Origin: Rhodothermales bacterium
Lineage (GTDB): Bacteria; Bacteroidota; Rhodothermia; Rhodothermales; Bin80
Length of the DNA: 58,481 nucleotides
Direction: 5' to 3'
Assembly (NCBI GenBank): GCA_012271205.1
Contig: JAAXGT010000056.1
Coordinates: 1 to 58,481 of the forward strand
Every line of letters begins with the position of its first letter. Positions within the stretch are counted from its first letter, which is position 1. This document shows, one piece after another, positions 6,734 to 34,429 of the stretch. Below the pieces are notes generated by a model. That model was not told the origin of the DNA. It ran no database searches and saw nothing but the letters and a program-made list of their open reading frames with translations. The position numbers and the translations under genes are program-made.

Positions 6734-7663
6734 ATGAGCGATTTCGGAGAACTACTGAATACTCTTCGCGCGGTGCACGATTTGCAAGCTGCAGCCGAGG
6801 TTCTTGAGTGGGACCAAGAGACCTGCATGCCGGCCGCTGCTACTGAAGCCAGGGCTCGGCAGACTGCCACTCTGCGCGAAACGGCTCATGAGCGATTTAC
6901 GCAGGATCGGATTGGTGAACTTCTGGAGAAGCTATCCTATGATGCCCATCCCACAGATTCATTCCGAGGCAGCCTGGTTCGTGAAGCTCTGCGGGGTTAT
7001 ACACGTGCCTGCAAGATTTCCGCCTCCCTTGTAGCAGACTTGGCGAGGGTTTCGGGTCGCGCGAAGGCAGCTTGGCGCCAAGCGCGGGAAAGCGACAATT
7101 TTGCGTTATTTGCACCTCATTTGAGCACATCGTAGCACTCATCATCCAGAAAGCAGAGGCGTTAGGATACGCGGAGCATCCCTACGATGCACTGCTGGAA
7201 GAATACGAGCCGGGCATGTGTACCTCGGAAGTAAGGCAGCACTTTGAGACATTACGTACGTCTCTGGTTCCAATCGTTGACGCCATCGCAAAACGGCCCT
7301 CGGTCAGCGACAAGTTTTTACATGCGCATTACGACGCTGACACGCAATGGGATTTTGGGATGAGGGTTCTTGAGGGTGTTGGCTATGACCTGACGCGCGG
7401 ACGACAGGATATTTCCGCCCATCCGTTCAGCACATCATTTTCGACCAATGACGTGAGAATCACCACTCGGATCAACGCGAATAACTTGTGCTCAGGCCTG
7501 TTCAGTACACTGCATGAGGCCAGCCACGGCATGTATGAACAGGGAATCGATCCTGAGCTTGAAGGCACACTGCTTGCTCAGGGGACGCCGCTTGAGTCCC
7601 AGTCCCGGCTCTGGGAAAACCAAGTAGGGCGCAGCAAGGCGTTTTGGATGTACTATTACAAAG
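6734..7663 (+). pseudogene. M32 carboxypeptidase, 5' half (interrupted gene)
   Basis: This is the N-terminal two thirds of a Taq/Pfu-type thermostable metallocarboxypeptidase (about 500 residues when whole). The start MSDFGELL at 6734 and the WDQETCMP block are normal. A one-base frameshift near 7130 moves the frame to the second part. The zinc motif HEASH (7513-7527) keeps both histidines and the glutamate. An in-frame deletion of about nine codons removes the segment, including a conserved histidine, just before ESQSRLWEN. The reading frame breaks off at 7663, in the middle of WMYYYK, where foreign sequence starts. The 3' half resumes at 12542. The gene is inactive three times over: frameshift, deletion and insertion. 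Confidence 0.9.
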
Positions 7664-7726
7664 GGAATTATGGCCCTTCTTCAAAGCATGCCAGAGAGCA
7701 CCTGATCTGACATAAGTGCAATTGAT

Positions 7727-8253
7727 TTACTCGTGGTAGACGTGGGGGCATGGACTGTATATATGTGTTCTGAACAAATATGGATTCGCGATGGGCGCAG
7801 AATGCCCTGGTAATCCTTCCACATGTCTCGTTGTGCTGACGCAGGTGCCTAAAGAGTCGAATACAGCAGCAGCGCCAGTGCCGGGACGCAGGATCATAAT
7901 TTGCCCTTCCTGTATGAATCGCACAAGAAGAGGCGGCATGCCGACTTCTGCGGGCAGGCATTCTGCCTTCGAATAGCACAGAGCATGAATTCCATCTGCG
8001 GAAAAGAGATGGATATCCCCCTGACCGATCACTGATCAACAGTCCCCCCCTTGGGCGCGACATCCATGGATTCAACGTTCCCGGTCAATACGGATGCATC
8101 TAATCGAACGGTGTCGTGCACAAGGAATAACTCGACGAATGGTACGACCGGCGACTGTTCCAGAGCGGCTTTACGTTCTCCAAGCGAGCAGCCAACCACA
8201 GCAATCATGATCACGACAAACAGTGGGCGATAGCTACGCGTGCGTGCCTCCAA
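7727..8253 (-). pseudogene. 6-bladed beta-propeller lipoprotein, truncated and frameshifted
   Basis: The first segment (8253 to 8029) has a hydrophobic signal ending in a lipobox-like VVGC, followed by a beta-rich stretch. A frameshift falls at a run of seven G/C bases (8044-8050). The second segment (to 7727) carries GDIHLFSADGI and GTGAAAVFDSLG, which look like propeller blades. Together they give about 170 residues, less than half the length of the intact paralogues at 8548 and 17541. The 3' end lies only about 60 bp from the insertion edge, so the C-terminal blades may have been cut away when the insert formed. Assignment is by resemblance to the intact paralogues and is moderate. Confidence 0.55.
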
Positions 8254-8547
8254 GCACGTACCACGGCTGCAGTTTGGCTTTTAAGATGGTCGCGTCCCAT
8301 TAAGAGCGGGGTCTAAAGCATAACTGAGGAAGTTTGGGGCAGGCAGTCATTTTCACGGACTGGACACGTGTTTATGGTTGCCAGTTCAAACACTGTGCCA
8401 TCTACGTACACGAGCTTGGACGAGTGGTGCCCTAACCACTGGCTCGGACGTGCAATTTACCCTATTTGGAGAAACAGCGCACGTTGACTCACGTTGCAGC
8501 CGTACCCACAGCGCGAATCCTCCCGACGCTGAACTGTACGAAATCAA

Positions 8548-9786
8548 ATGCAGATTCCGTCCATTATCTCTTCTAGGACTCGCCCGGCCACGAATGACAG
8601 AATTGGCCACACGAGCCTCCATGGCATCAGCGGCTTGATTCTCTTATGCGCCGCAGCGGCCAGTGCCTGCTCCAATAATCAATCCCAGATGCAAAGTGGT
8701 ACGTCTGGAAGCAGTCCACCGGCTACATTGTCCATAGAGGAAGTTCTTCGCATTGGTGACGAAGCGGCCGGGGATACGGTATTCTTCTCGTTTATCGAGA
8801 ACATCGCTGTCAATAGCCGCGGGCAGATCTTCATTGAAGAGCCCATGCCAGCCGCTATTCGCGCGTTCGATTCTGATGGTTCATACTTGGCTGACGTCGG
8901 CGCAGTGGGCGAAGGTCCTGGTGAATACTCGGATCCACTGTTCGGCGATGTGCTTACTGGCCCAGCGGACTCTGTGTACGTTTATGACACTAGCCAGGGA
9001 AGGCATCTGTCTATATATGAGCCGGACAAATTCGAGTTTGTGCGAAATGTTACGATTCCTCCGTATCCCGTTGAGGAGGGCAATCGTGTAGAGAATTTCG
9101 GCATTCTGGGTGTGGTTAAGGACGGATATTTTTTTCGATTGAGGTTGGTGCCCTCAAGAATGTTGGTAACCACCCACCGCGAAACGAGTGAAGTGATACG
9201 AATGGTAAATCTGGATGGAAGCTACGGGCCAGTTGTAGCTACGGGTTCAGGTTATGAGGGCGTTGTAGCATTAAGAGAGATACCGCAGTTGGGGCAAAAG
9301 ATTCCATTGCCGGATGGCATTCCTTTTGGGCGCAGCATGAATTGGGGTCTGGGACCGGAAGGCATGCTGTTCTCCGGATGGAATGACTTCATAAACATTG
9401 CCGTGATGTCGGTCAACGGCCCCGAGGAACGACACATTTCGATGACGCATTATCCGATTCCCGTCTCAGATGCCGATATGGAAGACTGGATGTCGCACTA
9501 TGGCCCCGAAATGAGGGCGAAGTTCAGGGAGCGAGGGCTACATACAACGAAGCCCGCTTACGAGGAACTACTGGTGGATGACAAGAATCGCGTGTGGCTC
9601 GAGCTTAGCGCAACTCAGGATTCCACGGTGGTGGAGTGGATCGTGCTGGATATGGATTCCCGCGTGGTTGGTAAAGTGACGCTCCCGTTTGGTGCGAGAC
9701 TCAAGGCCATACGCGACGGACGTGTCTATGCCGTTGAAACAAAAGGTGGCGTGCCCACGGTTGCTGTGTACGAGCTTAACGTGTAA
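8548..9786 (+). CDS. 6-bladed beta-propeller lipoprotein
   Basis: The 412-residue product begins with a long N-terminal region whose hydrophobic core (LILLCAAAASAC) ends in a cysteine that fits a lipobox, so it is probably a lipoprotein. The body shows repeated blade motifs typical of the Bacteroidota 6-bladed propeller family (NHL-like): ENIAVNSRGQIFI, IRAFDSDGSYL, GEGPGEYSDPLFGD and SVYVYDTSQGR. No catalytic residues are evident; these proteins usually bind ligands or partners at the cell surface. It lies inside the insertion that splits the M32 gene, divergent from a broken relative. ATG start at 8548 is the only ATG before the signal core. Function unknown. Confidence 0.75.
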   Translation: MQIPSIISSRTRPATNDRIGHTSLHGISGLILLCAAAASACSNNQSQMQSGTSGSSPPATLSIEEVLRIGDEAAGDTVFFSFIENIAVNSRGQIFIEEPMPAAIRAFDSDGSYLADVGAVGEGPGEYSDPLFGDVLTGPADSVYVYDTSQGRHLSIYEPDKFEFVRNVTIPPYPVEEGNRVENFGILGVVKDGYFFRLRLVPSRMLVTTHRETSEVIRMVNLDGSYGPVVATGSGYEGVVALREIPQLGQKIPLPDGIPFGRSMNWGLGPEGMLFSGWNDFINIAVMSVNGPEERHISMTHYPIPVSDADMEDWMSHYGPEMRAKFRERGLHTTKPAYEELLVDDKNRVWLELSATQDSTVVEWIVLDMDSRVVGKVTLPFGARLKAIRDGRVYAVETKGGVPTVAVYELNV

Positions 9787-10003
9787 CGTGCTCGTAAGCA
9801 TCAGACGTCTAGTTGCGTAAGTCAGTGGCTAACACGCGTGTCAAACGGAGGGGTGCCACCGGGAAACGCCGCACACCGTACGTAGGCCGATAAGTGCAGA
9901 GCCAACTGACCGCCCTGGCTTGAGGATCGTGCTTTGGTCCTCGGTGCCTTGCAGGACTCTACCGAGACGTCTGATTAACATCTCGGCAGCGCGTGGATTG
10001 TGC

Positions 10004-10072
10004 TGAAATGCTCTCCCAAAATTGGACCATACTTTAAGGTAGAGGATGGTCCAATTTTGGGGGAGCATTTCA
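10004..10072. repeat. 69-bp palindrome resembling paired IS3-family ends
   Basis: A 27-nt left arm (10004-10030) and right arm (10046-10072) are inverted copies with one mismatch and a 15-nt loop. The outer ends are TG and CA, and the arm (TGAAATGCTC...CCAAAATTGG) looks like the terminal repeat of IS3-family elements. It may be a MITE-like relic or the fused ends left after internal deletion. The three flanking bases on the two sides (TGC and TTC) do not match. As RNA it would fold into a very stable hairpin. Confidence 0.6.
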
Positions 10073-10509
10073 TTCGTCAGGCACTGTCCATTGGGGCCAA
10101 AGTGTCGAAAGGACAGCTTATTAGGAGTGGGCCAGTCGAATATGGTGATTATGCAAACAGTGGGAAATCGCACCTTAATCTTGACTGTTTTTCAAAAGAT
10201 GTGAAATTTAAGCGGAACTTCGAGGCGTCCCTGAGCCGGTCAAAGCCGTGACAGCTTGATTTGTTTAGGTGAGGGGCGGTTGCGCTGGCCTTTTACGCGT
10301 GCAAAGGCCGCCAGGAGCGTGCTATCCAGGGCTTGCGGATAATTTTCTTAGGTAACGTCAGCGGATTGGGGCTGATTAAATCTGCCCATGTAGTAAAAAT
10401 GCGCGGCGTGCTGAAGGTCCTATTCTGAGGGCCGTATTCCGGGCGTATGTTGCCTATTTGGGCACTGGTTCGTAGCTTGTACCTATTGATTCCCCGACCA
10501 TTTCTGCCC
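10073..10509. other. No recognisable gene between palindrome and IS1634 remnant
   Basis: An open frame runs out of the palindrome to 10251 but shows no family motif. The rest has no supported coding region. Part of it may be the left end of the IS1634-like element, but I could not identify its terminal repeat. Confidence 0.35.
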
Positions 10510-12228
10510 CTGTATGTCGAGCGTATCCCCAACCGTGGCTCCAAACCCACTTGGCTCATTCGAGAGTCCAAATGGGTCGACGGAAAATCCCGCAAGATCA
10601 CCCTCGCCAACATCACCCAGCTGCCCGAGGCCGTTCGCAACCAGATCCGAGACCGGCTTAAAGGCGGCCTCGTCGTGGGTGACCTCGTGGAGGCCCTCAA
10701 GGAAAGCTTCCCCTTCGCCCGTCGGCTACCCCCGGTCACGTCGCCGCTGCCCTCGGCACGCTCCGCGATCTGAAGCTCGACCACATCATTGACGGCAAGC
10801 GCTCCCGGAAGCGCAACATCATACTTGCCCTCATCGCATCTCGCATTCTCAGTCCCCGCAGCAAGCTCGCCACCGCCCCGGCGCTCAAGGAGGAAAGCCA
10901 GACCCGCAGCCTGGGACAGGAGCTCGGACTCAGCCCTGTGCACGAGCACGAGATCTGCGAGGCCATGGACTGGCTCTTTGCCCGCAGGGAGGCCATAGAA
11001 GAGAAGCTGGCAAAGCGTCACCTTACAGAAGGCGCTGTCGTACTCTGTGACGTCACGAGCCCGTACGTGGAGGGCTTCGGCGCCGACCTGGCCGAGTTCG
11101 GCTACAATCGTGACCGCAAGAAGGGCAAGAAGCAGATCAACTTTGGCCGGCTGTGCGACAAGGAGGGCCGGCCGGTGGCCGTGGAGGTCTTCTCGGGCTC
11201 CGTGGCCAATCCCCGTACGCTGACGTGGCAGCTGGACAAGCTCAAGCCTCACTTCGGCCTCAGCAAGGTGACCATCGTGGCAGACCGGGGACGGCTGATG
11301 CCCGCCCGCCCTTGCAGAGGAGGTCAGGCCCGCGGGCTATGACTGGATCACGGCCCTGCGCAAGCCGGCCAGCCGGGCGGCTTCCAGCTGTCGCTCTTTG
11401 ATGAGAAGGACATGGCCGAGATCGCCAGTGACGACTATCCGGGCGAGCGGCTGGTGGTATGCCGCAATCCGCTCAGGGCCGAGCGTGCAGCCCGGAGTCG
11501 AGAGGAGCTCCTGGAGGCTACGGAGAAAGACCTGGGCAAGCTGGCCAAGGCCACGAGCCGCAAGAAGAATCCGCTACGGGACATGGACAAGATTGCGCTA
11601 CGCGCTGGAGCCATCCTGGGCAGGTACAAGATGAAGAAGCACTTCGAGGTGGATGTTACGGACGATTCGTTCTCGTACAGCCGCAAGGAGGAGTCCATCA
11701 CGAAGGAAGCCAGCTGGACGGCATCTACGTGGGGCGCACCAGCCTGGCGGCCCGCGAGCTGTCCGCGGAGGAAGCTGTACGCACGTACAAGCAGCTGTCG
11801 GTCGTCGAGAAGGCCTTCCGGAGCATTAAGACGGTCGATCTGAAGGTCAGGCCCATCTACCATTACAAGGGCCGTCGCATACAGTGTCACCTCTTCCTGT
11901 GCATGCTGGCCTACTACGTGCAGTGGCCCATGCTTGAGCGCCTGGCATCGAGGAGGATGCCGATGCAGCCAGGGCCGCGCGCAAGGGCATAGTGGCGCCC
12001 GCCGTGCCGTCACCGGCCACGCTGAAGAAGGCGCGCACGCGCAAAGCCACGGACGGCACGGCCGCACTCGGCTTCCGGGCCCGGTTGGACCATCTGGCGC
12101 TGCTTACCCAGAACCACCTGGAAGAGAAGACCGCCACCGGCAAGCGCAAGTCTCGCATCGAGCTCCTCGCCGAGCCCCCGCCAACGCAGAGAAAGGCATT
12201 CAAGCTGCTCGGCGCCTCGCTCTGGTAA
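10510..12228 (+). pseudogene. IS1634-family transposase, multiply frameshifted
   Basis: The protein opens with YVERIPNRGSKPTWLIRES and a lysine-rich KSRKITLANI, the typical N terminus of IS1634 transposases. Frame 1 holds to about 10730. Frame 3 then carries DLKLDHIIDGKRSRKRN, VLCDVTSPYVEG (first catalytic Asp) and TIVADRGRL (second Asp) to about 11300. Later blocks (YPGERLVVCRNPLRAE, then VVEKAFRSIKTVDLKV with the catalytic Glu region, then a C-terminal tail ending at 12228) lie in two further frames. At least four indels are needed to explain this, so the gene is dead. It lies inside the segment inserted into the M32 gene and is visibly richer in GC than the flanking host DNA. Confidence 0.88.
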
Positions 12229-12541
12229 AACGTCCGTCAGGCCGAATCCAAGGGCGCTCCCTACCGGCCACAAATCCCCAAGATGCCCACCTCGCACCCG
12301 CAAATGGCTTGCTTTTTTACTTGGAAGTTCCGCTTAAGGATCAGAAAGAGTTTCGGTGCCAATTCGAGTTCCCGGGCGTTCGCGAAGACAACCATTCGAT
12401 TATTGTTGGCAACATTAAATCAAGCATAACAGCGTTGGTTCGGTTAACACTTGACCTTATCATTGACCGTGAAGATCAAGATGGCCAAGTACAATTGAGC
12501 GTGAAACTAGGAGTGATCAACCTTTCGATATAATCCCCATA
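12229..12541. other. Right end of the insert; no recognised gene
   Basis: One plus-strand frame stays open to 12533 and ends with a plausible beta-rich stretch (CQFEFPG, HSIIVGNI), but I do not recognise a family and no start is evident. It may be the 3' scrap of a cargo gene. The insert ends at 12541, just before the second ACAAAG. Confidence 0.35.
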
Positions 12542-13056
12542 ACAAAGCGTTGCAGGAATGTTTTCCGGCCCAGCTTGGGGTCGTGCCTATGGATCTGTTT
12601 TACCGGGCCATTAATCGCGTGGCGCCCTCGGTAATTCGTGTCGAAGCCGATGAGGTAACTTATAATCTGCATATTATGCTACGCTTTGAACTCGAACTGC
12701 TGCTGGTGGGAGAAAAGATTCGACCGAAGGAGTTGCCTGGGTTGTGGCGGGACAAAATGCTTACGTACTTGGGACAGTTCTCGGAATCGGATGCCGACGG
12801 TGTACTCCAAGACATACATTGGTCGCTTGGTGCAATCGGGTATTTTCCAACGTATACCTTGGGTACTTTAATGTCCGCACAGATTTACGCGTGTACAAAG
12901 GCAGCGCTACCAGATTTGGAAGAGTACATTGCGCGGGGACACTTCTCGCCACTCTTGGATTGGCTACGCGTTAACGTGTACGAGTGGGGACGGCGGTTGT
13001 CAGCGCGCCAGATACTCGAGCGGCTCATGGGGGAGGGGGTTAGTGCTGCGCCCTAG
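12542..13056 (+). pseudogene. M32 carboxypeptidase, 3' half (interrupted gene)
   Basis: This is the C-terminal third of the metallopeptidase whose first part ends at 7663. It resumes in frame with ALQECFPAQ and keeps strong family motifs: the NRVAPSVIRVEADEVTYNLH block, the LGQF/GVLQDIHW segment and GYFPTYTLG near the end. It stops normally at 13056. An ATG-started product would lack the zinc site completely and so would have no peptidase activity. Notably this half has no frameshift, unlike the 5' half. Confidence 0.9.
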
Positions 13057-13131
13057 CTCAAATACGTGCGCATTTACGGTAAACTGCCGTAAGTTTGCCG
13101 CAGGTATTCCAAGAATTGAATCTGCAGGATT

Positions 13132-13494
13132 ATGGCTACAAAACCGGTAAAGAAGTCCATTCAAGCAGCAAACTTTGCCATCGAGTATTATGCGGAGAGT
13201 GTCAAGTTGTCGCGCCGGCAGCGCACCATTGTTGAAACACGCTTGCACAAACTTGCAGCCGGACATCGGGATATTGCCGGAGCTTCCGTTGCGGTCGAGC
13301 GCATCGGCGGTGATACGCGTTACGCCAAATACAAGGCTCGGTTAGTGATTTATTGCAAGCCGTCCAATGTGGCTGCAATACACAAGTCAGATTCAATAAA
13401 CAGCGCCGTGACCGAGGCATTGGAAGCCGTCGAGCGCCAAGTCCGCCGTCAGCGTGAACGGTTTCGCGAGCGCAGCCGCGCAGCACGTGCTTGA
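13132..13494 (+). CDS. HPF/RaiA-like ribosome-associated protein
   Basis: The 120-residue product has the layout of a short ribosome hibernation factor. It has an N-terminal strand (FAIEYYAESVKLS), a helix rich in basic residues (VETRLHKLAAGHRD), strands with VAVERIGG and KARLVIYC, and a final helix (AVTEALEAVERQVRRQRERFR) like the second S30AE helix. Such proteins bind the 30S decoding region and idle ribosomes in starvation. It lacks the C-terminal dimerisation domain of long HPF. ATG start at 13132. It follows the interrupted peptidase by 76 bp but is probably transcribed independently. Similarity is of moderate strength; the basic C-terminal tail is unusual. Confidence 0.6.
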   Translation: MATKPVKKSIQAANFAIEYYAESVKLSRRQRTIVETRLHKLAAGHRDIAGASVAVERIGGDTRYAKYKARLVIYCKPSNVAAIHKSDSINSAVTEALEAVERQVRRQRERFRERSRAARA

Positions 13495-18842: not shown

Positions 18843-20074
18843 TTAAGTCCCAATTGTACTGTAAATTGGTTTTTTGGTGGTGGGACAGACAGCGGCCGCC
18901 AGCCATGCTTCGGAGGGAACCCGAAAGGCAACCGGAGCAGCGCGGCTGACTCCTTCTTCCCGGTAGTATTCATCCACCGTGAAGCAGCACTTCTGCGTCA
19001 CCCACTGCTCATGCCACTCTGCCCGCAGCGTCCGCATCAGCCGCTCCACCCTGTTCGTACGGCGTAATCGCTTCGGATACTTCCAGGGAAGGACCCACCC
19101 CGCCGCCTGATTCGGGTGGTTGAACAAGGGGTCGAGGGCCGCGCCCATCGCAGGCTTCAAAGGCTTCGGACCATGTTCCAGCACGTTCCGCGTCAGGTGC
19201 ACCGGCCACTGCAGACGGAAACGACTGGGCCATGGCACGCACCAGTCCGCTATAACGGTCCGTTACCACGCTCCAGCCCCGGGCCTTCAACGGCACTGGC
19301 AAAGCGCTCCAACTGTCACAGGATTTGCCCTGGACCACAGAAAAGCCCCAATCTCTCGCATCCCTGTTTTCGCTGATCCCCACTGCCATGAGTACACTCA
19401 TCGAACGTACCGCAGCCTCCTGGCGAACCTTCACTACCATTGTATCCATCCGCACAAACGGATACTGGACCGCTGTCAACAATCGCTCTTTGAAGGCCTT
19501 GACCCGTGCATCCAACTGTGCACCGGTGACCGTGCGCTTCGAAAAGCTGGTGTCGCCCCGCGTCTCAGTGATCCTGGTCACCTTGCGCATGGAGACGCGG
19601 CCCCATCTCCATCATGGCTAGGAGTCTGCGTCGCAGGAACTGAATTACCCTCCGACAGGGGAATTTCAGACGAATTACGCCGGGTTAGATACACTTGGTG
19701 GGGCTTGGTCCCTATTGTAGCTTGCAATTGGGTCGATTCTCGACTTCAAGTGGAGAACAGGAGCTGCCGATATTTCTTGCGGCGCAGGCTCCCAGGATCA
19801 GCGCCTGTTCCGAGCGCTGATATCGGCTGAACAGCTGATCTCCGTTCCGGCATTGCGGTACCAAGAGTTCCAGCCTCCCCCGCACGTCTTCAGCGGCCGG
19901 GCACGGTAGCCATTACGGTAGGCCGTCCGCTTGGGGATGCGTTCATACGGGGATATGCTCGGCCATCTGTGCGTCCAACACGGCATTCAATGCGCGCTCC
20001 ATCAGCTGCTTCCAGCGCTCATCCCGCGTGAGCACCTCCTTCCATGTCTTAAGGTCAAGCGGTATCTTTTTCAT
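18843..20074 (-). pseudogene. IS256-family (mutator type) transposase, degraded
   Basis: The start MKKIPLDLKTWKEVL at 20074 leads into LMERALNAVLDAQMAEHIP. The typical block TAYRNGYRARPLKT and LELLVPQCRNGDQLFSRYQRS follow in other frames. A central frame (19590-19009) has TGAQLDARVKAF, YPFVRMDTMVVKVR with the first catalytic Asp, and MAVGISENRDARD with SVVTDRYSGLVRAM. The last part (to 18843) holds WQ.PVHLTRNVLEH and RRTNRVERL but lacks the usual arginine-rich segment after it. Several frameshifts, stops and deletions make it inactive. It sits directly upstream of iolC. Confidence 0.82.
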
Positions 20075-20208
20075 CGGGTCATCGTCTTGGTTTGTGGAGA
20101 TTCGATCCCTCGCAATCTACCAATAGGCGGTGGCCTTTCTGTGTTCATCGATTCAAATGTTTGGTTTTTACAGCAAACGAGAGTCACAGTCCTGACAGCA
20201 CCGACTTG

Positions 20209-21213
20209 ATGAAGTTTGATCTGGTCACGATGGGCCGCTCGTCCATCGATTTGTATTCCAACGATATGGGTTCACCGTTCGAAAACATCACGAGTTTTGC
20301 AGCTTATGTAGGCGGCTCACCCACGAATATCAGTGTCGGGGCACAGCGCCTAGGGCTTGAGACTGCACTTTTGACGGCTGTAGGTGAGGACCCGGTTGGC
20401 GACTTTATTGTGCGGTTTCTCGATCGTGAAGGCATCGAAACCCGCTTCATCGCACGCAAACCCGGTCGGCGTACAAGTGCTGTGTTACTGGGTATAGAGC
20501 CGCCGGATAAATTCCCGCTGGTTTATTACCGGGACAATTGTGCGGACAATGCACTCAATATCGACGATGTCCTGAAAACACCCATTGCCTCGGCCTCTGC
20601 ATTCGAGTTTGCGGGTACCAACCTTGCAAAGGAGCCCAGCCGCAGTGCAACAATGTTCGCGGCCGAACAGGCGTGCCACGCAGGCGTGCCCGTCGTATTT
20701 GATCTGGATTTCAGGCCGGATCAATGGCATGATGCACGCGCATTTGGACTGGCTGCCCGTGCCGTGATGGGGCAGGTGCAAATTGTAATAGGTACTCAGG
20801 ATGAAATCAAAGCCGCTGTGCTGGAGGATCCCAATCAGGTGCAGCTCACTCACCAACAGGTTTCAGATGCGCGTGTAGGCGGTAATGTGCCACGGGCTAC
20901 CGCAACCATCCTGCAGTTGGGTCCTGAATTGGTCATCGAAAAATGTGGTGCACGCGGGTCACGCATTCATGTCAAGGGTAAGGTGCCGGTTGACATTCCC
21001 GGCTATCCCGTCGACATTTACAATATCCTGGGGGCAGGGGACGCCTTTGCTGCGGGTTTCATTTACGGTTTCGTAAAGGGATGGCCGTGGTACAAGGCGG
21101 CACGCTTAGGCAATGCGTGCGGGGCGATTGTAGTTACGCGCCATGGTTGTGCCAACTTCATGCCTACGTACGAAGAGGTCATGGCCTTCGTGGGCGATCG
21201 GGGAGGGCTATAG
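20209..21213 (+). CDS. iolC: 5-dehydro-2-deoxygluconokinase
   Basis: This 334-residue PfkB/ribokinase-family kinase phosphorylates 5-dehydro-2-deoxy-D-gluconate (DKG) to DKG-6-phosphate in inositol breakdown. The N-terminal GGSPTNISVGAQRLGL and the C-terminal NILGAGDAFAAGF (anion hole and catalytic Asp) are intact. A longer frame starts at 20092, but the ATG at 20209 gives the normal start MKFDLVTMGRSSIDLY, so I use it. The protein is the short Bacillus form, without the fused C-terminal DUF2090 domain. It opens the iol gene cluster, 40 bp before iolD, and the IS256 remnant lies just upstream. Confidence 0.92.
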   Translation: MKFDLVTMGRSSIDLYSNDMGSPFENITSFAAYVGGSPTNISVGAQRLGLETALLTAVGEDPVGDFIVRFLDREGIETRFIARKPGRRTSAVLLGIEPPDKFPLVYYRDNCADNALNIDDVLKTPIASASAFEFAGTNLAKEPSRSATMFAAEQACHAGVPVVFDLDFRPDQWHDARAFGLAARAVMGQVQIVIGTQDEIKAAVLEDPNQVQLTHQQVSDARVGGNVPRATATILQLGPELVIEKCGARGSRIHVKGKVPVDIPGYPVDIYNILGAGDAFAAGFIYGFVKGWPWYKAARLGNACGAIVVTRHGCANFMPTYEEVMAFVGDRGGL

Positions 21214-21254
21214 GATTTGTATTATTTTGACGGCACAGGCATTTGGAAATGGTT

Positions 21255-23147
21255 ATGAATACCCTGCGACGCACGATGGCACAAGCCATAGTGGAGTTTC
21301 TGAAGCAGCAGTACGTTGCCCGCGATGGCAAAAACCAGCCCTTTTTTGCCGGGTGCAGCGGGATATTCGGGCATGGCAATGTCAGCGGGATTGGCCAGGC
21401 GCTACAGGAGCACAAGGACTTTCGCTATTACCAGGCGCGCAACGAGCAGGCCATGGTACATACTGCTGCCGCCTATGCCAAAATGAAGAACCGCTTGCAA
21501 ACGTTTGCCTGCACTTCTTCAATTGGACCGGGCGCCACAAACATGATAACAGGGGCCGCCGTAGCGACCATTAACAGGTTGCCCGTGTTACTCCTGCCGG
21601 GAGATATATTTGCACGCCGCAATGTTGCTCCCGTGCTTCAACAATTAGAGAGCGAGCATTCACAGGACCTTAGTGTCAATGACTGTTTTAGGCCCGTGAG
21701 TCGGTACTGGGATCGCATAAATCGTCCGGACCAGATCATCGCCGCGCTACCGGAAGCCATGCGTGTCCTCACCAGCCCGGCCGAAACCGGTGCGGTCACA
21801 CTTGCATTACCGCAGGATGTCCAAACGGAAGCATTTGACTATCCAGTCGAGTTATTCGAAAAACGCACTTGGACAGTGCCACGCAATCGACCGGATCAGG
21901 ATGCGCTTGTGCGTGCAGTAGCGCTGATTAAACGCAGTGAGCGGCCACTGATTGTCGCAGGTGGCGGCGTGATATACAGTGAAGCACACGAAACTCTCCG
22001 TGCCTTTGCACGCCAAACCGGGATACCCGTTTGCGAAACTCACGCCGGCAAAGGCAGCGTGCTGAATGGTGATGCATTCAATTTGGGAGCCATCGGGGTA
22101 ACCGGAAATTTTGCGGCCAATCGTATCGCCAAGAGAGCTGATCTCGTTATTGGCATTGGCACCCGCTACAGTGATTTTACGACCGCAAGCAAGACGATTT
22201 TCCAGCGGCCGGATGTCCAGTTTGTCAACATCAATGTGGCCGAGTTTGATGCGTTCAAGCACAGCGCATTGCCGCTGGTTGGAGACGCCAGGGTGACGCT
22301 TGAAGAATTGGGTGCCGCACTCAGTGACTGGGAAGTCAGCTCCCATTACCGCAATGTCTGTACGGAGTTGGTGTCTTCGTGGAACGCGGAGGTGGATCGC
22401 ATATATAGCATCCGCAATACGCCGCTTCCCAGCCAAGGGGAAATCATCGGCATTGTAAACGAGGCGGGTGATCCTGAGGGCGTAATGGTGTGTGCGGCGG
22501 GCAGCCTGCCCGGTGACTTGCACAAGCTTTGGCGTGCACGTCATGCCAAGCAGTATCACATGGAGTACGGCTATAGCACTATGGGCTATGAAATTGCCGG
22601 TGGGCTCGGCATCAAGATGGCCGACCCCGATCGCGAAGTCTATGTGCTGGTGGGCGATGGCAGCTATCTGATGTTATCCAGCGACCTTGTGACCTCTGTA
22701 CAGGAAGGGTACAAACTTACAATTGTGCTCATGGACAATCACGGATTCAAGAGCATTGGCGGACTTAGCCGCTCGCTGGGACAAGAGGGATTTGGCACTC
22801 GTTATGTCTATCCCCGAAAGGGCAGCCTCCCCGGAGACGAGGAGGATACAGTTCAGACGCTGCCCGTTGATCTCGCCACCAATGCTGAATCGTTGGGAGC
22901 ACATGTGTTTCGATGCCTCAGTCATGAGGACATTGTCAGGGCACTGGATGCGTCAAAAAGCGTCAGTACCACCACTGTCATTTACGTTCAGAACGATCGC
23001 TATGTCGATGTGCCGGGTTATGAAGCTTGGTGGGATGTACCGGTAGCCGAAGTAAGTACCATGCCCGGTGTGCAAGCTGCCCGCGAGGCTTGGACGAAAA
23101 TGCGCGCAAAGGAGCGCCACCATCTCGAGCAGGATAAGGCCGTATGA
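21255..23147 (+). CDS. iolD: 3D-(3,5/4)-trihydroxycyclohexane-1,2-dione hydrolase
   Basis: This thiamine diphosphate enzyme (about 630 residues) opens the ring of trihydroxycyclohexanedione to give 5-deoxy-glucuronate. The N-terminal Pyr domain has the catalytic glutamate region ([16 protein letters not shown]), the central domain is of acetolactate-synthase type, and the C-terminal PP domain carries [13 protein letters not shown] and ends the ThDP motif with VLMDNHG. Starts at a TTG (21243), ATG 21249 and ATG 21255 are possible; the last gives the usual [11 protein letters not shown]. Its stop overlaps the ATG of the next gene (ATGA at 23144-23147), which shows translational coupling to the transporter genes. 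Confidence 0.95.
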
Positions 23148-24124
23148 AATTTGGATGTTCACGGTTTGCGCTGGTAGTTACCACACTTTTCACGGGAATA
23201 TATTCGGGGTGTGGCGGCACTTCCGGAGAGCAAGCGGCAACGGAGGAACGGCTTCGATTTGTTTATGTGACGCACGGGCAGGCCTCTGATCCATTCTGGA
23301 GCGTCGTGCAGAACGGGGCACAGGATGCAGGGCGTCATGTGGGCGTACGGGTCGAGTATCAGGCGCCAGAGTCGTTCGACATGGTGACCATGGCGCAGCT
23401 TATTGACGCTGCGCTTGCTTCCCGCCCCGACGGACTCGTGGTAAGCATTCCGGATGCCGATGCGCTTGAAGGTCCTTTACAGGACGCTCAGGAAGCAGGC
23501 ATTCCGGTTATAAGCATAAACTCCGGTGGGGACCATGCCGAGCGCCTGGGCGTGCTGTTTCACGTCGGTCAATCTGAATATGACGCGGGCTATCGTGGTG
23601 GGGAGCGACTGGCGTCTGCCGGTGCCAGACGAGCCCTGTGTATTAATCAGGAAGTCGGCAATGTGTCTCTGGACCAGCGCTGCGCGGGTTTTGCGGCGGC
23701 TATGACAGATACTGGAGCGGAGGTGCAAATGCTGGCCGTGGAATTGGCCGATCCCACGGAATCAACCCAGCGCATATTGGCCGCCTTGCGGTCTGATCCT
23801 GCTATTGATGCGCTCATGACACTTGGACCCACGGGTGCAATTCCTTGTCTTCGTGCGCTGGAGGAGGCTGATTTGGAAGGGGAAGTCTTATTTGCCACCT
23901 TTGACGTTGCTCCTGAAATTCTCGCCGGAATTGAAAGCGGAAATATCCTCTTCGCTATAGACCAGCAGCAGTATATGCAGGGATATCTGCCGGTGGTACT
24001 CTTGGCATTGTATCATCGTAACGAAAACCTGCTGGCTGACGAGATTCTTCACACTGGTCCAGGCTTTGTTACTTCGGAAAACGTACAGCGCCTCAAAGCG
24101 TTGACACGCCACGGCACCCGCTGA
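23144..24124 (+). CDS. Sugar/inositol ABC transporter substrate-binding lipoprotein
   Basis: The 326-residue protein is a periplasmic-binding protein of the ribose/inositol type (Peripla_BP_4). A lipoprotein signal ends at YSGC (C23), so it is anchored to a membrane rather than free. The mature part begins [18 protein letters not shown] and carries [21 protein letters not shown] and TLGPTGAIP, the two-lobed fold of this group. It is coupled to iolD upstream and to a permease 2 bp downstream. The likely ligand is myo-inositol, by analogy with the Caulobacter IbpA system; that is an inference from context and not from binding-site residues. Confidence 0.85.
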
Positions 24125-24126
24125 TT

Positions 24127-25155
24127 ATGAGCCGGGTGGATGATCGTCTGCACCAAAGTCATCCACTGCGGCAAATCCTTGCCCGTCCGGAGCTGGGTGC
24201 ATTGGGTGGAGCCGTCGTGGTATGGATCTTCTTTGCTACGGTTGCGGGTGACCAGGGCTTCCTGACCCTGCGCGGTACCGCTACCTATCTGGAGGTGGCG
24301 GCTGAGCTGGGCATTCTTGCCGCAGCAGTGGCTCTGCTTATGATTGGCGGCGAGTTTGATTTGTCGGTCGGATCAATGATCGGCGCCAGTGGCATGCTGC
24401 TTACCATATTGAGCGTCCAGTGGGGTTGGAACCTGTGGCTGGCGCTCCTCATGGTGATGGTGTTCGCTGTGGTGGCCGGGTTATTCAATGGAATTCTGGT
24501 CGTGCGTACCGGGCTTCCGTCCTTTATTGTGACGCTGGCCACGCTGTTTGTTTTTCGAGGCGCAACAATTGCGCTCACGCGACTCGTGACCGGGCGCACG
24601 CAACTGGGCGGACTAAACGATGTGAGTGGTTATGACTCGGCCCGTATGATTTTCGCCAGCGAATTGCCGTTTGGTTCAGCCGAACTGCCAGTCTCCATAG
24701 TGTGGTGGATTCTGCTTACGGCGATAGCCACGTGGATCCTGCTTAAGACATCGTTCGGAAACTGGATTTTTGGGACTGGCGGAGATGCCAAGTCGGCAAG
24801 CAGCGTCGGGGTACCTGTGCCCCGCGTCAAGATCATCCTGTTTGTGGGTACCGCCCTCGCCGCCGCGCTTGTAGGTGTGATCCAAGCGGTCACGTTCAGC
24901 GGAGCGGATGTGCTTCGCGGCGAACTGCGCGAATTCTTTGCCATCATTGTAGTGGTAATCGGCGGGACACTGCTCACAGGTGGCTACGGGTCTGCGATTG
25001 GCGCCGCCATAGGGGCCCTGATTTTTGGAATGGTGCGCCAAGGAATAGTCTTCGCAGGCGTGGACGCGGACTGGTTCCAGGTGTTTTTGGGTGTAATGCT
25101 GCTGATCGCCGTGCTTGTTAATCACTGGGTGCGCAGGAAGGCGCTGCGGGAATGA
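24127..25155 (+). CDS. Sugar/inositol ABC transporter permease (RbsC type)
   Basis: The 342-residue inner-membrane permease has eight to ten hydrophobic segments. The RbsC-type hallmark [15 protein letters not shown] lies near residue 78, and [26 protein letters not shown] follows. The family's [15 protein letters not shown] is near the C terminus. It belongs with the preceding binding protein and the following ATPase, whose ATG overlaps its stop (25152-25155). Together they form a CUT2-type importer placed inside the iol operon, so inositol is the most likely substrate. Confidence 0.88.
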
Positions 25156-25895
25156 GTGCAACCACGCCCTTACTCGAGACCCGTGCCTTGTGCAAGGATT
25201 TTGGGCATGTAATCGCCTTGAGAGATATCTCGATGCAGTTGCATGCCGGCGAAGTATTGGCCCTCCTCGGAGACAATGGCGCCGGCAAGTCTACGCTCAT
25301 TAAATGTCTTTCCGGCGTGCATCGACCAACCAGCGGTGTTCTGCTGATGGATGGCACCTCCGTCGTATTCAAGGTGCCTCGTGACGCCTTGAAGTGCGGC
25401 ATTGCCACGGTGTATCAGGACTTGGCTATGGTGCCGCACTTGAGCATCAGTCGCAACTTTGTACTCGGCAATGAACCGGTGCGCGGTCGGGGATTATTCA
25501 AGCGCCTCGATACTCGCTTGGCCGACCGGATTACGCGTAAAGGGTGCAGCCGGCTCGGGATTGACTTGCGGACGACAACGCAGCCGGTGGGCACACTCAG
25601 TGGGGGCGAGCGCCAGAGTGTTGCGATCGCCCGGGCGGTGCATTTTGGGGCACGGGTACTGATACTGGATGAGCCAACCTCTGCCTTGGGGGTAAAGGAA
25701 TCCGAAAACGTGCTGAATGACATTTGCCGGGCGCGAGATCGCGGAGTAGGCGTTATCTTGATTACCCACAATGTCCACCACGCCTTTCCCGTTGCCAATG
25801 CCTTCACGATTTTGAAGCGCGGACGCAGTTACGGAAATTTCAGGAAGGAAGAGGTGACCATGGATCAGGTGTTGAGAATGATGGCGGGACTATGA
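25152..25895 (+). CDS. Sugar/inositol ABC transporter ATPase, single-domain
   Basis: This 247-residue protein has one complete nucleotide-binding domain: Walker [10 protein letters not shown] (near residue 40), Q-loop region [10 protein letters not shown], signature LSGGERQ, Walker [12 protein letters not shown] and the switch histidine (ITHNVHHA). CUT2 importers such as RbsA, MglA and IatA usually have an ATPase of about 500 residues with two domains in tandem; here there is one, as in FrcA-type systems, so the pump must use a homodimer. Start ATG overlaps the permease stop. iolA begins 7 bp after its stop. Confidence 0.9.
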
Positions 25896-25902
25896 CGGCA
25901 AA

Positions 25903-27381
25903 ATGCACACATTAGAACAACTTCCAAACTTCATTGGCGGCACTTGGCTGCGTTCCAAGAACGCAGAGTATCTGGATGTCACAAATCCAGCCACGGGGGA
26001 AATCATTGCTGAAGTGCCATTAAGTCCGGCGGTGGATGTGGATGCCGCGGTCAGTGCAGGCAGTAAGGCCTTTGAATCCTGGCGACGTGTTCCCGTGACG
26101 GAGCGCGCACACTATTTGTTTACGTTCAGGGAAAAGCTGGAAGCACATTTCGAAGACATTGCCCGGACCGCAACCCGCGAATGTGGCAAGACCATTGCGG
26201 AAAGCCGCGGCGAACTGCGACGGGGAATTGAGAATGTGGAGGTGGCCTGCGGCATCCCTTCGTTAATGCAGGGCTACAATAACGAGGACATCGCCAGCGG
26301 GATTGACGAGCACATGATCCGCCAACCCCTGGGCGTGGTGGTGGCAATCACCCCTTTCAACTTTCCGGGGATGATTCCGCTGTGGTTTCTGCCCTATGCC
26401 ATCGCGACGGGGAATTGTTTCATTCTGAAGCCCAGCGAGAAGGTCCCCCAGACGAGTCAGTGGTTGGTACGGCTCTTAGAGGAATCGGGACTGCCCCGAG
26501 GTGTCGTGCAACTGGTACATGGCGGCAAACCTACAGTGGATGCTCTTCTCGAGCACCCCTTGGTTAAGGCCATTAGCTTCGTGGGCTCCACACGCGTGGC
26601 ACGCCACGTTTATGCCCAAGCTGCAGCCAATGGCAAGCGGGCGCAGTGTCAAGGGGGCGCCAAAAATGCAGCCATCATCCTAGACGATGCCGCCATGGAC
26701 ATGACGTCCAACATTGTGGCAGACTCCGCATTTGGATGTGCGGGACAGCGTTGCCTAGCCAACAGTTTGGCTATCACTGTCGGTGGCGCACGGGAGCCCT
26801 TTACCGAAGCGATGGCGGATGCAGCTCGAAAACGTCGCGTACGCTACGGACTGGAGGAAGAGAGTGAAATGGGCCCTGTGATCACTCCGGAAAGCAAGTC
26901 GCGCATCGAGAGGCTGATTAGTGAGGCCGAAAACGAAGGCGCCCGCATTCTCATCGACGGCCGTGGCAGATCGGTGGACGGTTTCGAGAATGGCAATTGG
27001 GTATTTCCCACACTTCTGGATGGCGTGCCTGCGGAGGGCATGCTGGCACGTACCGAAATCTTTGGGCCAGTTTTCGGATTGATCCATGCAGACAGTCTGC
27101 AGGAGGCAATTGATCTGGTTAATTCACAGTCGTACGGCAACATGGCGTGCCTTTTTACCAGCAGTGGAGCAGCAGCCCGCCAGTTTCGCTATGAAGCTGA
27201 AGCCGGCAATATCGGAATCAATCTGGGAGTCGCAGCCCCAATGGCATTCTTTCCATTCAGTGGCTGGAAGGACAGCTTTTTTGGATCCTTGCATGCGCAG
27301 GGACGCCATGGTGTCGAATTCTACACTCAGACAAAGGTGGTAGTCGAGCGCTGGCCCAGTTACTGGAGTCGAAGATTCTAA
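25903..27381 (+). CDS. iolA: Methylmalonate/malonate-semialdehyde dehydrogenase (CoA-acylating)
   Basis: This 492-residue aldehyde dehydrogenase family enzyme converts malonate semialdehyde (or methylmalonate semialdehyde) to acetyl-CoA (or propionyl-CoA) with NAD+ and CoA. The family's nucleotide-binding block [19 protein letters not shown] and [11 protein letters not shown] are clear. The catalytic cysteine is in [11 protein letters not shown]. The general-base glutamate of ordinary ALDHs is missing, as expected in the CoA-acylating class ([10 protein letters not shown] instead of ELGGK). It ends the uptake part of the iol operon and supplies the final step of inositol breakdown. The ATG at 25903 is the first after the ATPase stop. 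Confidence 0.94.
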
Positions 27382-27463
27382 TCAGGTAAAGGGGGTGTCT
27401 GAAGGAATTCGGGGGTGCCGAGTGTACCAGTGTGATGGTCGGGAAAATATTCGATTCTGAATC

Positions 27464-30400
27464 ATGATCAAGTTTGCATTGAATATGACGAAATGGCTGT
27501 GGCCTCTGCTGGTTTTATCCGTCCCACCTGCGTATGGTCAAGATGAAATCAGCTATGACAATTTGCGTTTTCGGTACGTGGGGCCCACACGAGGCGGACG
27601 TGTGACTACAGTAACCGGACATCGGGAGCACCCCTATACATTCTATATGGGGGCGACAGGCGGCGGCGTCTGGAAGACTACAGACTATGGCAATTCATGG
27701 GAAAATATTTCTGATGGCTACTTCCAGACTGCCTCAATTGGCTCTATTGATGTGGCCAACAGTAATCCTGACATAATCTATGTGGGTACTGGATCCGACG
27801 GGCTGCGGAGCAATGTCATTATCGGACGCGGCGTTTACAAATCAACGGATGGGGGCAAATCCTGGACCTTTGTTGGCCTGCGCGATACTGGCCAGATCGG
27901 CGCTGTTGTCGTTCATCCCACCAATTCCCAGGTAGTGTACGTGGCCGCCCTTGGCAATCCATTTGGGTCCAACTCTGAGCGCGGCGTATACAAGACCATT
28001 GACGGAGGAGCTACCTGGCAGCGGATATTATTCGTCTCTGAGCGCACCGGGGCAATTGACTTGGAACTCAATCCGGCCAATTCCGACGAAGTCTATGCGG
28101 CGTTCTGGCGAGCTGAACGGAAGCCTTGGACCATCATCAGTGGTGATGATTCGGAAAGCGGCATTTATGTTTCACGCGATGCAGGGGCCACGTGGACGAA
28201 GAGCATTGCGGGCCTTCCCACCGGGCTGACGGGCAAGATTGACCTTGCCGTTTCCCAAGCGGATCCCAGTCGTGTATATGCGCTTGTCGAGGCTGTTCCT
28301 GCGGAAGAAGGGCTATACCGCTCCAATGACCGAGGACAATCATGGCACCTTGTCAATGATGCGGGTTATCTGATGAGCCGCCCCTTCTACTACACCAACG
28401 TGGATGCCGACCCTACAAATGCGGATGTGGTCTGGGTTAACAATCTGGGTCTCTGGAAATCGGAAAGCGGGGGAGCAGAATTTGCACGCATGTCCACACC
28501 ACATGGCGATAACCACGATATCTGGATCAATCCGGACAATCCCCTGATCATGGTGCAGTCGAATGACGGCGGCGCCAATGTCACACTTGACGGTGGATAT
28601 ACTTGGTCCACACAGCATAATCAACCCACGGCGGAACTGTATCAGGTGGATGTGGACAATCAATTTCCGTATTGGTTGTACGCAGGACAGCAGGATAACA
28701 CGACCATTGCTGTTCCCAGTTTGCCACCCGACCGGCGTCCCGGCGGTGCTTCGGCATACTGGGAGGCTATAGGAGGATGCGAAACCGGCCCAGCCGTGCC
28801 CCATCCCGTGAATGCCAATATCGTCTATAGCAACTGCAAAGGTACATTCAGTCGCTATAACCGTATTACTGGCCAAGAGCAGAACTATTACGTTGGTGGC
28901 GTTAATCTATACGGGGTGAACCCGAGGGAGCTTCCTTTCCGTTTCCAGCGGGTCGTTCCAATTGAGGTGTCTCCGCACGACCCTGGCGTCATTTACCATG
29001 GATCTCAATTTGTGCACCGCACACAGGACGAAGGGCGTACCTGGGAAACTATAAGCGGCGACTTGACGGCTTTTCGGCCAGAGCGGCAAGTGATCAGCGG
29101 TGGCCCGATTACACGCGACATCACCGGAGAAGAGCACTACAGCACGCTATATGTAATTGAAGTATCTCCTGTAGACGAGAATGTGATCTGGACTGGAGCC
29201 AACGACGGTCTGGTGCATGTGACGCGTAATGGAGGAGGGGACTGGATCAACGTGACGCCGCCCGCAATGCCGCCGGAAGGCCGGATTCAAACCATTGATC
29301 CGTCACCCCACAACGCAGCCAAAGCTTACGTGGCCGGCTATCGATATCTGTTGGGGGATTTTCGGCCGTATATCTACAAGACAGAAGATTATGGAGCATC
29401 CTGGACTTTACTGACGGATGGCACCAATGGCATCCCTGAAGACTCACCCACGCGAGTCATTCGGGAAGATCCTGATCGAAAGGAGCTTTTGTATGCTGGC
29501 ACAGAGTTTGGCCTCTATGTTTCGATGGATGACGGGGTGACATGGAAGGAATTTCAGCAGGGATTACCAGTTACACCCGTGACCGACATCAGGGTACACC
29601 GCCAAGATCTGGTGGTGTCTACGATGGGGCGTGGTTTTTGGATCATGGACAACCTCACACCGCTCCAGGCGGATCAAGTACAATTTGCCGGATCGGCGAG
29701 GTATTTGTTTCCCGTGCGGGATGCTCATCGAATGCGCTATGGATCGGGTCGGCGCAGCGGCACTGATCCCCAATATGTGCCGCCGGGTGTCATTGTTGAT
29801 TACTGGCTCAAGGAGGCCCAGACCGGGCCGATAAAACTGGAAATACTTGATGCGGAAGACCGCGTCATTCGGACCTATGTGGCCGACGCTGTGCAACCCG
29901 AATCGTCAGCTGTGCAAGGTATGCGCGGGCCAGTGGTGCGAGGATCCATGCTGGCTACATTAAGTGCAGAAGCCGGCATGCACCGTCTTATTTGGGATCT
30001 GCGCCACGATGGTATGGACTTCGGAGGCCAAACCCGCGGAAGAGGGCCTGTGGCAGTGCCGGGAGTCTACACGGTACGGCTGACTTCGAGAGAATGGAGC
30101 ATGTCACACGAAGCCGTAGTGCATATGGATCCACGTGTTGCGGCAGATGGTGTTACACAAGCTGATTTGGAAGCCCAGCTGGCATTCAGTTTCGAGGTAA
30201 TGGCGACACAGGCGAAAGCCTACGATGTAGCCGCCCGTCTGGATTCGATAATGGCTTGGCTGGAGTACGCTGAGCCCGTTTCGATTATAGACGAGATTCA
30301 GGAGTCCGTAATGCGGTTGCATTCTTTGGTGGTAACAGCCAGAGGGGACAGTTATCCCCAGCCGATGATAATCGATCAACTCAGCTATTTGAACAGCTTT

Positions 30401-30529
30401 ACGTCTCAGGGCGATCACAAGCCGGGCAAAGACGCCTATGACCGATTGGCTACGCTTCAGTCGGAGTTGCACGAGATCACGTCTGAGCTTGAACTACTGG
30501 AGACGGAAAAGATGACCGAAGCACGTTAA
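27464..30529 (+). CDS. Large secreted BNR/VPS10-type repeat protein
   Basis: The 1021-residue product has a signal peptide (hydrophobic [13 protein letters not shown], cleavage near residue 25) and then many beta-propeller blades with Asp-box-like motifs: [69 protein letters not shown]. This is the sortilin/VPS10 or 'glycosyl hydrolase (BNR)' type fold. The last 250 residues are different: a beta-sandwich-like part and a helical tail ([19 protein letters not shown]). No sialidase catalytic set is evident. It is sandwiched between iolA (82 bp before) and iolE (13 bp after), so it is co-transcribed with inositol genes; it may release or bind an inositol-containing polymer, but this is speculation. 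Confidence 0.8.
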
Positions 30530-30542
30530 GCGCTGCTTACGT

Positions 30543-31472
30543 ATGAGTGGCCGAATCAGGGTGGCTAACGCCCCATGTTCTTGGGGAACACTGGAGTTTG
30601 AAGGTTTGGGCGGCGAGCAAATCGGGTACGCCCAGATGTTGAATGAACTGGCTTCCACAGGGTATGCCGGCACGGAGCTGGGGAACTGGGGGTACATGCC
30701 CACCGACCCTGTGACACTTCTTAAGGAACTTAGGGCGTACCAGTTATCGATGCGTGGAGCATTTGTGCCGGTGGCACTCGCCAAAGCGTCCGCACATGAA
30801 GAGGGTAACGATCGCGCAATACGTACGGCCAAGCTATTAGCTGCAACAAGTGATCCCAATGATCCGCCCTTTATCGTGCTGGCCGATGAAAACGGAAAGA
30901 TTCCAGCACGTACGAACAACGCAGGACGCATTACGGCAGATTTGGAACTCTCATCTACTGATTGGAAGGTATTCGCCCAAGGTGCAATGCAGATCGCCCG
31001 GGCGGTGCTGGAGACGACCGGGCTGCGAACCGTCTTCCACCATCACTGTGCGGGATACATTGAAACACCGGCCGAAACCGCCCGCTTTCTGGAGCTCACG
31101 GATCCGGAATTGATCGGGCTGGTGTTTGACACGGGCCACTATGTGTATGGCTCAGGTACAAATGAGACATCTGCGCAGAGCGGGTTGGACATGTTCAGAG
31201 ATCGAATCTGGTATGTGCACTTCAAGGACTGCGAACCGAGTGTTGCGAGCGAAGCTAGGATGCGGGGCTGGGATTACTTCGAGGCCGTGGGGCACGGCGT
31301 GTTCTGTGAACTCGGTCACGGTTGCATAGATTTTGCGGCCGTGCTGGATTGGCTGCATGCAATGAATTACACCGGCTGGATCGTGGTGGAGCAGGATGTC
31401 TTGCCCGGAATGGGCCATCCCAAAGAGAGTGCGGCTCGTAATCGTGCCTACTTAAGAGCGCTGGGTATATAG
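30543..31472 (+). CDS. iolE: Inosose dehydratase
   Basis: This 309-residue TIM-barrel protein of the xylose isomerase-like superfamily dehydrates scyllo-inosose to trihydroxycyclohexanedione. The N terminus [16 protein letters not shown] and the following [16 protein letters not shown] are typical IolE blocks. Metal-binding residues appear in [24 protein letters not shown] and YVHFKDCEP, and the C terminus [15 protein letters not shown] is conserved. Start ATG lies 13 bp after the large repeat protein gene, in the same operon. After it the cluster is broken by cysH on the opposite strand before iolG follows. Confidence 0.9.
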
Positions 31473-31620
31473 GCATTCGCTGCCATATGCCGGTGGCGGA
31501 TCCATCCGACTGACCAGAAGGCAACGTCGCGAAGTCTCTGAGTGCAAACGGCCAAACGAATCCAGGCATGGCTGCTGAATAACGTGTGCCCGTTACATTG
31601 GTCAAAAACTGTGTAGGCGG

Positions 31621-32388
31621 CTACGCCAGATCATTCATTCCAGCTGTGCAGAGTGCCAATTCTTCGCCATTTGAAGAGGCTTGCAGGCTATGCAGCCCGC
31701 ACTCATTCTTCGCACGACGGCGCCAACGGCCTGCGCGGTCATCTTCTCCCGGAGCAACCGGACTGGTGCACGGCCAACAGCCAATACTCGGATATCCCTG
31801 GTCGTGCAGCGGGTTGTATGGGACGTTATTATCCCGAAGGTAGCGCCAGACCTCCAGTTTCTTCCAAGCCACGAGCGGGTTAATCTTCACGACCCCAAAT
31901 CGTTTATCCCACTCGACGACTTGTGCCTGTGCACGCTGAGGAGTCTGAGCGCGCCGAATCGAGCTGATCCACGCGTCAACACGACCTAACTCTGCCTCAA
32001 TTGGTGCTATTTTTCTGATCGCACAACAGACGTCAGGATTGCGTTCCCAGAGTCGATCGCCGTATGTGTTCTCCTGCTCCTCCAGCGTAAAGGCTGGCGT
32101 TACCCGCCGAATCGTCAGATTGTAGCGGGATTCGATGGTATCCCACAGGGCATAGGTCTCCTCGAAAAAGAGTCCTGTGTCAAGCGTGAACACATCGATG
32201 GAAAGCCCATGACGTCCGATCAGATCAATCAACACGCACCCTTCGGGCCCCAGTGCGGTTGCAAAGGCCAAGCGATGCCCATAGCAGCTTGTGGCCCATC
32301 GGAGTATGTCAATCGCCGCTCGGCCATCAAGCTTTGCTGCCACGTGCGTTAATTCCCTTACGCTTATCCCCTGTACACAATTCGTCAC
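31621..32388 (-). CDS. cysH: Adenylyl-sulfate/phosphoadenylyl-sulfate reductase
   Basis: This 255-residue thioredoxin-linked reductase turns APS or PAPS into sulfite during sulfate assimilation. It has both cysteine pairs that hold a 4Fe-4S cluster (CC at 121-122 and CWPC at 204-207), the mark of the bacterial APS-reducing type, along with RRAQTPQRAQ and GEDDRAGRW. The catalytic ECGLH motif is at about 229-233, followed by an extra 22-residue tail. The start is a GTG at 32388. No other cys gene is near, and it faces the iol genes on the opposite strand, so it looks like an isolated insertion or relocation. Confidence 0.9.
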   Translation of the reverse strand: MTNCVQGISVRELTHVAAKLDGRAAIDILRWATSCYGHRLAFATALGPEGCVLIDLIGRHGLSIDVFTLDTGLFFEETYALWDTIESRYNLTIRRVTPAFTLEEQENTYGDRLWERNPDVCCAIRKIAPIEAELGRVDAWISSIRRAQTPQRAQAQVVEWDKRFGVVKINPLVAWKKLEVWRYLRDNNVPYNPLHDQGYPSIGCWPCTSPVAPGEDDRAGRWRRRAKNECGLHSLQASSNGEELALCTAGMNDLA

Positions 32389-33403
32389 AATGTCACTCTC
32401 GCCAGATTATTGTGATCTAACGGGCAACCCGGTTGTTACGCATTCCCAATGCATGCAGAGACTGGTGCATGCCTGACCTAACGCTGGATGTGGGACCGCA
32501 TTGAGTTGGCCATACTTGAACGGCGTCTGTGGCTTCTGAGTATCTGCACGTTGCAGGGATCCAGAATATTTTCGTGGGCGCTAAGATAACAGATTTTATT
32601 CATTCGGTACACTCTTAACTTGATGCCGCTGGTCTCACGGTGAGCATTCTCAGCTGATTCATATTTGACCGGCTTGGTGTGACATTGCCTACTCGGTGCA
32701 TCCGACGTACCTGAAGCCGTATGTGACGCAATGCCGCACATACTGTTGATGGGGTCGAGGAATAAGGTGCGGCACCCCGATTTTCTTCGATTCAAATTGA
32801 CAGTCGGTCATTCGCTGGATCATGCTGGTATGCAGGCTATTTCTGGCATTTTGCCATCGATGAGCACGGGCCAAATCCAATACTTGTCATGTGCCCTTAC
32901 CAATGGCACCCGGAATCAGCCGGGGCATGGTCACGATGTATGTGATTCCGGTCTGTGGATTTCTGCTTTTTCTTGCGTTCCAAGTGATGTAATTCGTGGC
33001 GAATTCGCCGCTGGGAAAAGGTGTCCGAATTGTGTATACGTTCGTCGCTCCGATACGAGCGCAGGAACGAACCCCCACACGCCGTCATAACCGTGCCAGA
33101 GAACCAAGTGTGGCAAAGCTCGTAGAGGGGCGTAAATGTGAAGTCACCATTAAGAATCAATTAGTTCCATCTCCTTAAATAAAACGGTTTTTGGTCGATC
33201 TGGTCTGGATAGCTTCACACGTTGGACCGGTGCACCTGCTCACTCTGTTCCGGTGAATAGTCGGAAGGCATCGAGTTACGTGTAAGGTACTGCAATCGGA
33301 CTGGCCCCGGATTCGATAACCCGTTCTGAGCGCGAAAACTGCATTTGAACGGGCGTACGTATTGGGCCGTATTTTCCGCGGCAAGACTTTTGCAACCCAC
33401 ACT
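32389..33403. other. One-kilobase gap between cysH and iolG, no intact gene
   Basis: cysH and iolG diverge from this stretch, so promoters of both must lie here. Several short minus-strand frames in 32478-33160 change from one to another like an eroded coding region, but no family is recognisable. I see no clear promoter hexamers, riboswitch or repeat. Confidence 0.4.
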
Positions 33404-34426: not shown

Positions 34427-34429
34427 GAA

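Follow-up and report, generated by a model that had tools for sequence, protein, structure and literature searches.

A mosaic DNA block inserted into the sole M32 carboxypeptidase gene of a Rhodothermales bacterium

HESQ is a conserved motif of peptidase family M32 (thermostable carboxypeptidase 1; PF02074) (PMC7918520). Insertional inactivation by an insertion sequence (IS) or a transposon is known by a short direct repeat around the insert and by gene halves that rejoin in frame, and in the IS1634 family the target duplication is usually 5–6 bp long (PMC2266710). The locus described here resembles M32 genes in that three stretches cover most of the family model and HEXXH is kept, but it is interrupted, frameshifted, broken in HESQ and stopped late. 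It likewise shares the short direct repeat and the in-frame halves with ordinary insertional inactivation, whereas its insert is a mosaic with a foreign gene as cargo, and has neither convincing terminal repeats nor a transposase to match.

The window, a stretch of 58,481 nucleotides, is the whole of contig G000:C199 in a 3.34-Mb draft genome of 224 contigs. Throughout this genome, PF02074 profile matches were found only at 6752–7138, 7093–7662 and 12535–13068 (91.9–218.6 bits against a cut-off of 25.1), and together with alignment to relatives they delimit a 5′ part of an M32 pseudogene at 6734–7663 (+) and a 3′ part at 12542–13056 (+; E = 1.6e-64) that ends at a premature TAG. Our comparison set comprised 38 other genomes from the family and the order, with none of the same genus among the relatives returned; among named genomes, those nearest by M32 include metagenome assemblies of Rhodothermales and Rhodothermaceae, and one of these assemblies came from brine. 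M32 is single-copy, full-length and stop-free in 35 of the 38, a fragment at a contig edge in one and missing from two. Downstream of M32, the window carries the conserved HPF/S30AE gene (13132–13494, +; PF02482) and then genes for a lipoprotein, a DAHP synthase and a dehydrogenase, an order that also follows the unbroken M32 gene, in part or completely, in G015, G002, G001, L044 and L046. Since relatives have both the whole gene and the same downstream order, M32 stood intact at this ancestral locus before it was split; the empty site is documented at the protein level and by synteny rather than base by base, the relatives being of other genera. The comparison with uninterrupted genes that the initial annotation had proposed thus agrees with its claim of gene loss by insertion, as does the rejoining of the halves with nothing lost. 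That the bacterium lost its only M32 carboxypeptidase gene through insertion into a once normal gene is supported by the 35 whole genes and the conserved downstream neighbours.

The gene is split at 7663/12542 by an insert of 4,878 bp (7664–12541, one repeat copy excluded), with ACAAAG on both sides (7658–7663 and 12542–12547, both +), as had been described from the sequence beforehand. When ACAAAG is read once, FWMYYYK and ALQECFP are joined and the length is exactly that of the relatives, no residue being gained or lost; the rejoined segment, FWMYYYKALQECFP, aligns without gaps with FWASYYHDLQQRFK of G015 and with other relatives. The in-frame reconstruction reported earlier is therefore exact. 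A direct repeat of at least 6 bp touches a random junction with a frequency of about 0.0015. The insert as a whole is bounded by a repeat of target-duplication length, although microhomology would look alike. The site had earlier been given to the base: it is located, but fixed only to within the 6-bp repeat. Any assembly word is far longer than this repeat and both junctions lie outside repeats, which speaks against misassembly; the junctions have only six bases in common and both sides re-enter the same gene in frame, so that misassembly is unlikely.

Three further lesions were found in the gene. The frameshift already noticed in the catalytic half was placed near 7115–7121. A deletion next to the zinc site is also present as reported, but alignment with M32 relatives gives its size as nine nucleotides, i.e., three codons and not nine: the region reads GTPLESQSR where relatives have GTSLGMHESQSR, and the GMH of the latter is gone from before ESQSR, so that HESQ is broken by the loss of its H. 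The E that follows the deleted H is, by our count from HEXXH in solved M32 enzymes, the third zinc ligand. The same alignment added a lesion missed earlier, a premature TAG at 13054–13056 in place of a W that is conserved in relatives, with loss of the final residues. HEXXH itself is retained as HEASH, with S in place of the otherwise invariant G of HEAGH. With the insert, the frameshift and the nonsense codon, M32 no longer forms one open reading frame, and with the 9-nt deletion by the zinc ligand besides, the gene cannot make the enzyme. Among the 86 columns that are invariant across 28 M32 relatives, that G-to-S change is the single departure, which argues that inactivation was recent. Judged by its sequence, M32 is a recent pseudogene. 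Sequencing noise is an unlikely source of the frameshifts, as many long intact genes lie further along the contig.

The nature of the insert was left unstated in the initial annotation; its make-up is that of a mosaic, part of it acquired by horizontal transfer. From left to right, it consists of a decayed lipoprotein gene, an intact beta-propeller lipoprotein gene, a 69-bp IS relic, an IS1634 element and an orphan fragment; it is single-copy and absent from the site in relatives. The leftmost piece (7671–8253, −) is a frameshifted relic of a beta-propeller lipoprotein gene, covering residues about 28–210 of a 353-aa relative (L146:3868–4929). Its tblastn matches (residues 28–67, 79–157 and 202–210, the last one weak) are collinear and fall in three different frames, with at least two frameshifts, and the relic therefore seems to be cut off at the left edge of the insert.

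The intact gene (8548–9786, +) encodes a 412-aa six-bladed beta-propeller lipoprotein (DUF5128; PF17170 E = 2.4e-5, 24.1 bits against a cut-off of 22.9), 83% identical in amino acids to its counterpart in G015, a genome of genus g6. At the DNA level, the stretch from 8573 to 10003 (+), comprising the gene and a 3′ non-coding tail, is 88–90% identical to G015 (coding 89%, non-coding 90%), and 81–85% identical to the tandem copies in G007, G009 and G011. The adjoining chromosome compares with G015 very differently, at 60–64% identity for M32, 54% for HPF and 66–72% for the larger matches in the 20 kb that follow. Within g6 itself, the M32 gene of G015 is 86–87% identical to those of other species, i.e., more divergent than the acquired stretch is from G015. 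With identities of 89–90% in the stretch against 54–72% beside it, the similarity to g6 is much too high to stem from vertical descent and shows horizontal transfer between genus g6 and this lineage. The tree of beta-propeller copies is largely unresolved and gives neither the donor nor the direction of transfer. The gene may still be expressed.

In g6, this gene sits in a tandem array of units of about 1.84 kb beside conserved neighbours. The g6 proteins have 74–83% amino acid identity to the one in the insert and the 3′ non-coding tail is common to both, whereas the gene here is a single copy inside M32 and not beside Fe–S oxidoreductase or DUF1501-like genes. Only a piece of the g6 locus is held in common, since the first eight or nine codons and the flanks differ from the g6 copies. 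Mobility of the unit inside g6 came under suspicion because its flanks vary from genome to genome, and was rejected on account of shared neighbours: the Fe–S oxidoreductase gene is common to G015 and G011 and the DUF1501-like gene to G011 and G009, so that the g6 copies represent one locus, rearranged on one side. The g6 arrays at L146:5326–10833, L147:5159–10678 and L148:4891–8651 hold two or three beta-propeller lipoprotein genes each; copy number varies between species, and copies are mostly 78–88% identical.

Two IS relics follow. The first (10004–10072) is a near-perfect palindrome of 69 bp, in which the two ends of an IS, probably of the IS3 family, are brought together by loss of the interior; elsewhere the left end continues into an OrfA-like start, MKRRTYTAAFQSRV. 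Copies of that left end lie close to contig ends in C96, C89 and C61, and there is another in C121. Because of its recurrence near contig ends, this multi-copy IS probably breaks the assembly. The second is a defective IS1634-family element of about 2.1 kb (10208–12337, +; NF033559 E = 3.9e-29; inverted repeat I24), which agrees with the family in its transposase model, its length and its terminal inverted repeats (14/14 bp perfect), and differs from it in its broken frames, with at least three frameshifts in the transposase, and in having no 5–6 bp target duplication, its flanks GTGAAAT and GGATCAG being different. Its G+C content is mostly 58–66%, against about 53% around it. A plasmid origin of the insert was considered and dropped, plasmid matches being limited to IS1634. 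The remainder (12338–12541, +) holds an orphan reading frame fragment of 64 aa and the right end of the insert, for which no relative was found in the other 113 genomes of the order, plasmids, Pfam or NCBIfam.

We consider it likely that M32 was recently hit by a pre-formed and partly foreign mosaic block, which entered in trans or by short homology. The block would already have been a patchwork of decayed genes and dead insertion sequences before its arrival, because its relics look at least as decayed as M32 and one is cut off at the edge, a relative timing drawn from a handful of lesions. The block might have been brought in by a transposase working in trans, in which case ACAAAG would be a target-site duplication; or else a circular fragment might have integrated by a single crossover at short homology. 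By which route the block came, that it came as one piece and in what order the lesions arose are all inferred.

A stepwise history, in which M32 was first entered by one small element that later received the other pieces, would suit the IS1634 element and the IS relic, which are plainly separate pieces within the block. We think such nesting rather unlikely, as no smaller element could be recognised abutting the ACAAAG copies, decay of the inner relics is no less advanced than that of M32, and IS1634 lacks here the duplication of 5–6 bp that it usually makes (PMC2266710).

A simple IS insertion was rejected, since the ends and the content of the insert do not fit one. No transposase matching the ends was found within the insert; IS1634 is the only transposase there, and its own ends are internal, at 10208 and 12337. 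The ends of the insert match as terminal inverted repeats at 8/10 bp at best, in a register that would fit an imperfect 8-bp duplication (ATTACAAA/ATAACAAA), and the genome has transposases of other IS families; a mobile insertion cassette, non-autonomous, with the ends GGGAATTAT/GGGGATTAT and moved in trans, could be read from this. Yet such an end match arises with a frequency of 0.02, in about 2% of random trials, when the registers tried are considered; no second copy of the ends was found in the genome or in 58 relatives, and the left end apparently lies inside a decayed gene, all of which makes a cassette improbable. A second copy of the insert was likewise not found in the genome, nor were its left and right parts in the 58 relatives. 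ISL3-type ends were pursued because a truncated transposase adjoining the G015 beta-propeller copy is, as we recognised it by eye, presumably ISL3-like; there were no usable ends for comparison, and the insert's own end match is weak. We hold it very doubtful that an undescribed non-autonomous element with short GGG-type ends shuttles beta-propeller lipoprotein genes between Rhodothermales genera and that the insert is one of its copies. An assembly chimaera, joining DNA of two organisms from one sample, might be thought of in a draft of so many contigs whose insert partly resembles another genus, but is hardly credible when both sides lead back into one gene, in frame and with a 6-bp repeat, the rest of the contig is syntenic with relatives and the M32 gene bears three further lesions.

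The insertion offers a clean and recent case of gene loss whose site is narrowed to six bases, together with a lipoprotein gene passed between genera of the same family. The split M32 gene could be used to mark this lineage. Ordinary in kind, the event stands out for how well it is documented; the general picture is unchanged.

Elsewhere on the contig, an apparently frameshifted IS1595-type transposase with a zinc-ribbon N-terminus (487–1120) and a frame resembling a broken IS256-type transposase (19009–19590, −) were tentatively recognised by eye, as were type I restriction enzyme genes for large helicase-like and specificity subunits at the right end of the contig (52422–58440). Between them, 20092–35494 holds an intact sugar-type catabolism cluster (kinase, thiamine-dependent enzyme, ABC transporter and dehydrogenases), partly syntenic with G002:C40.
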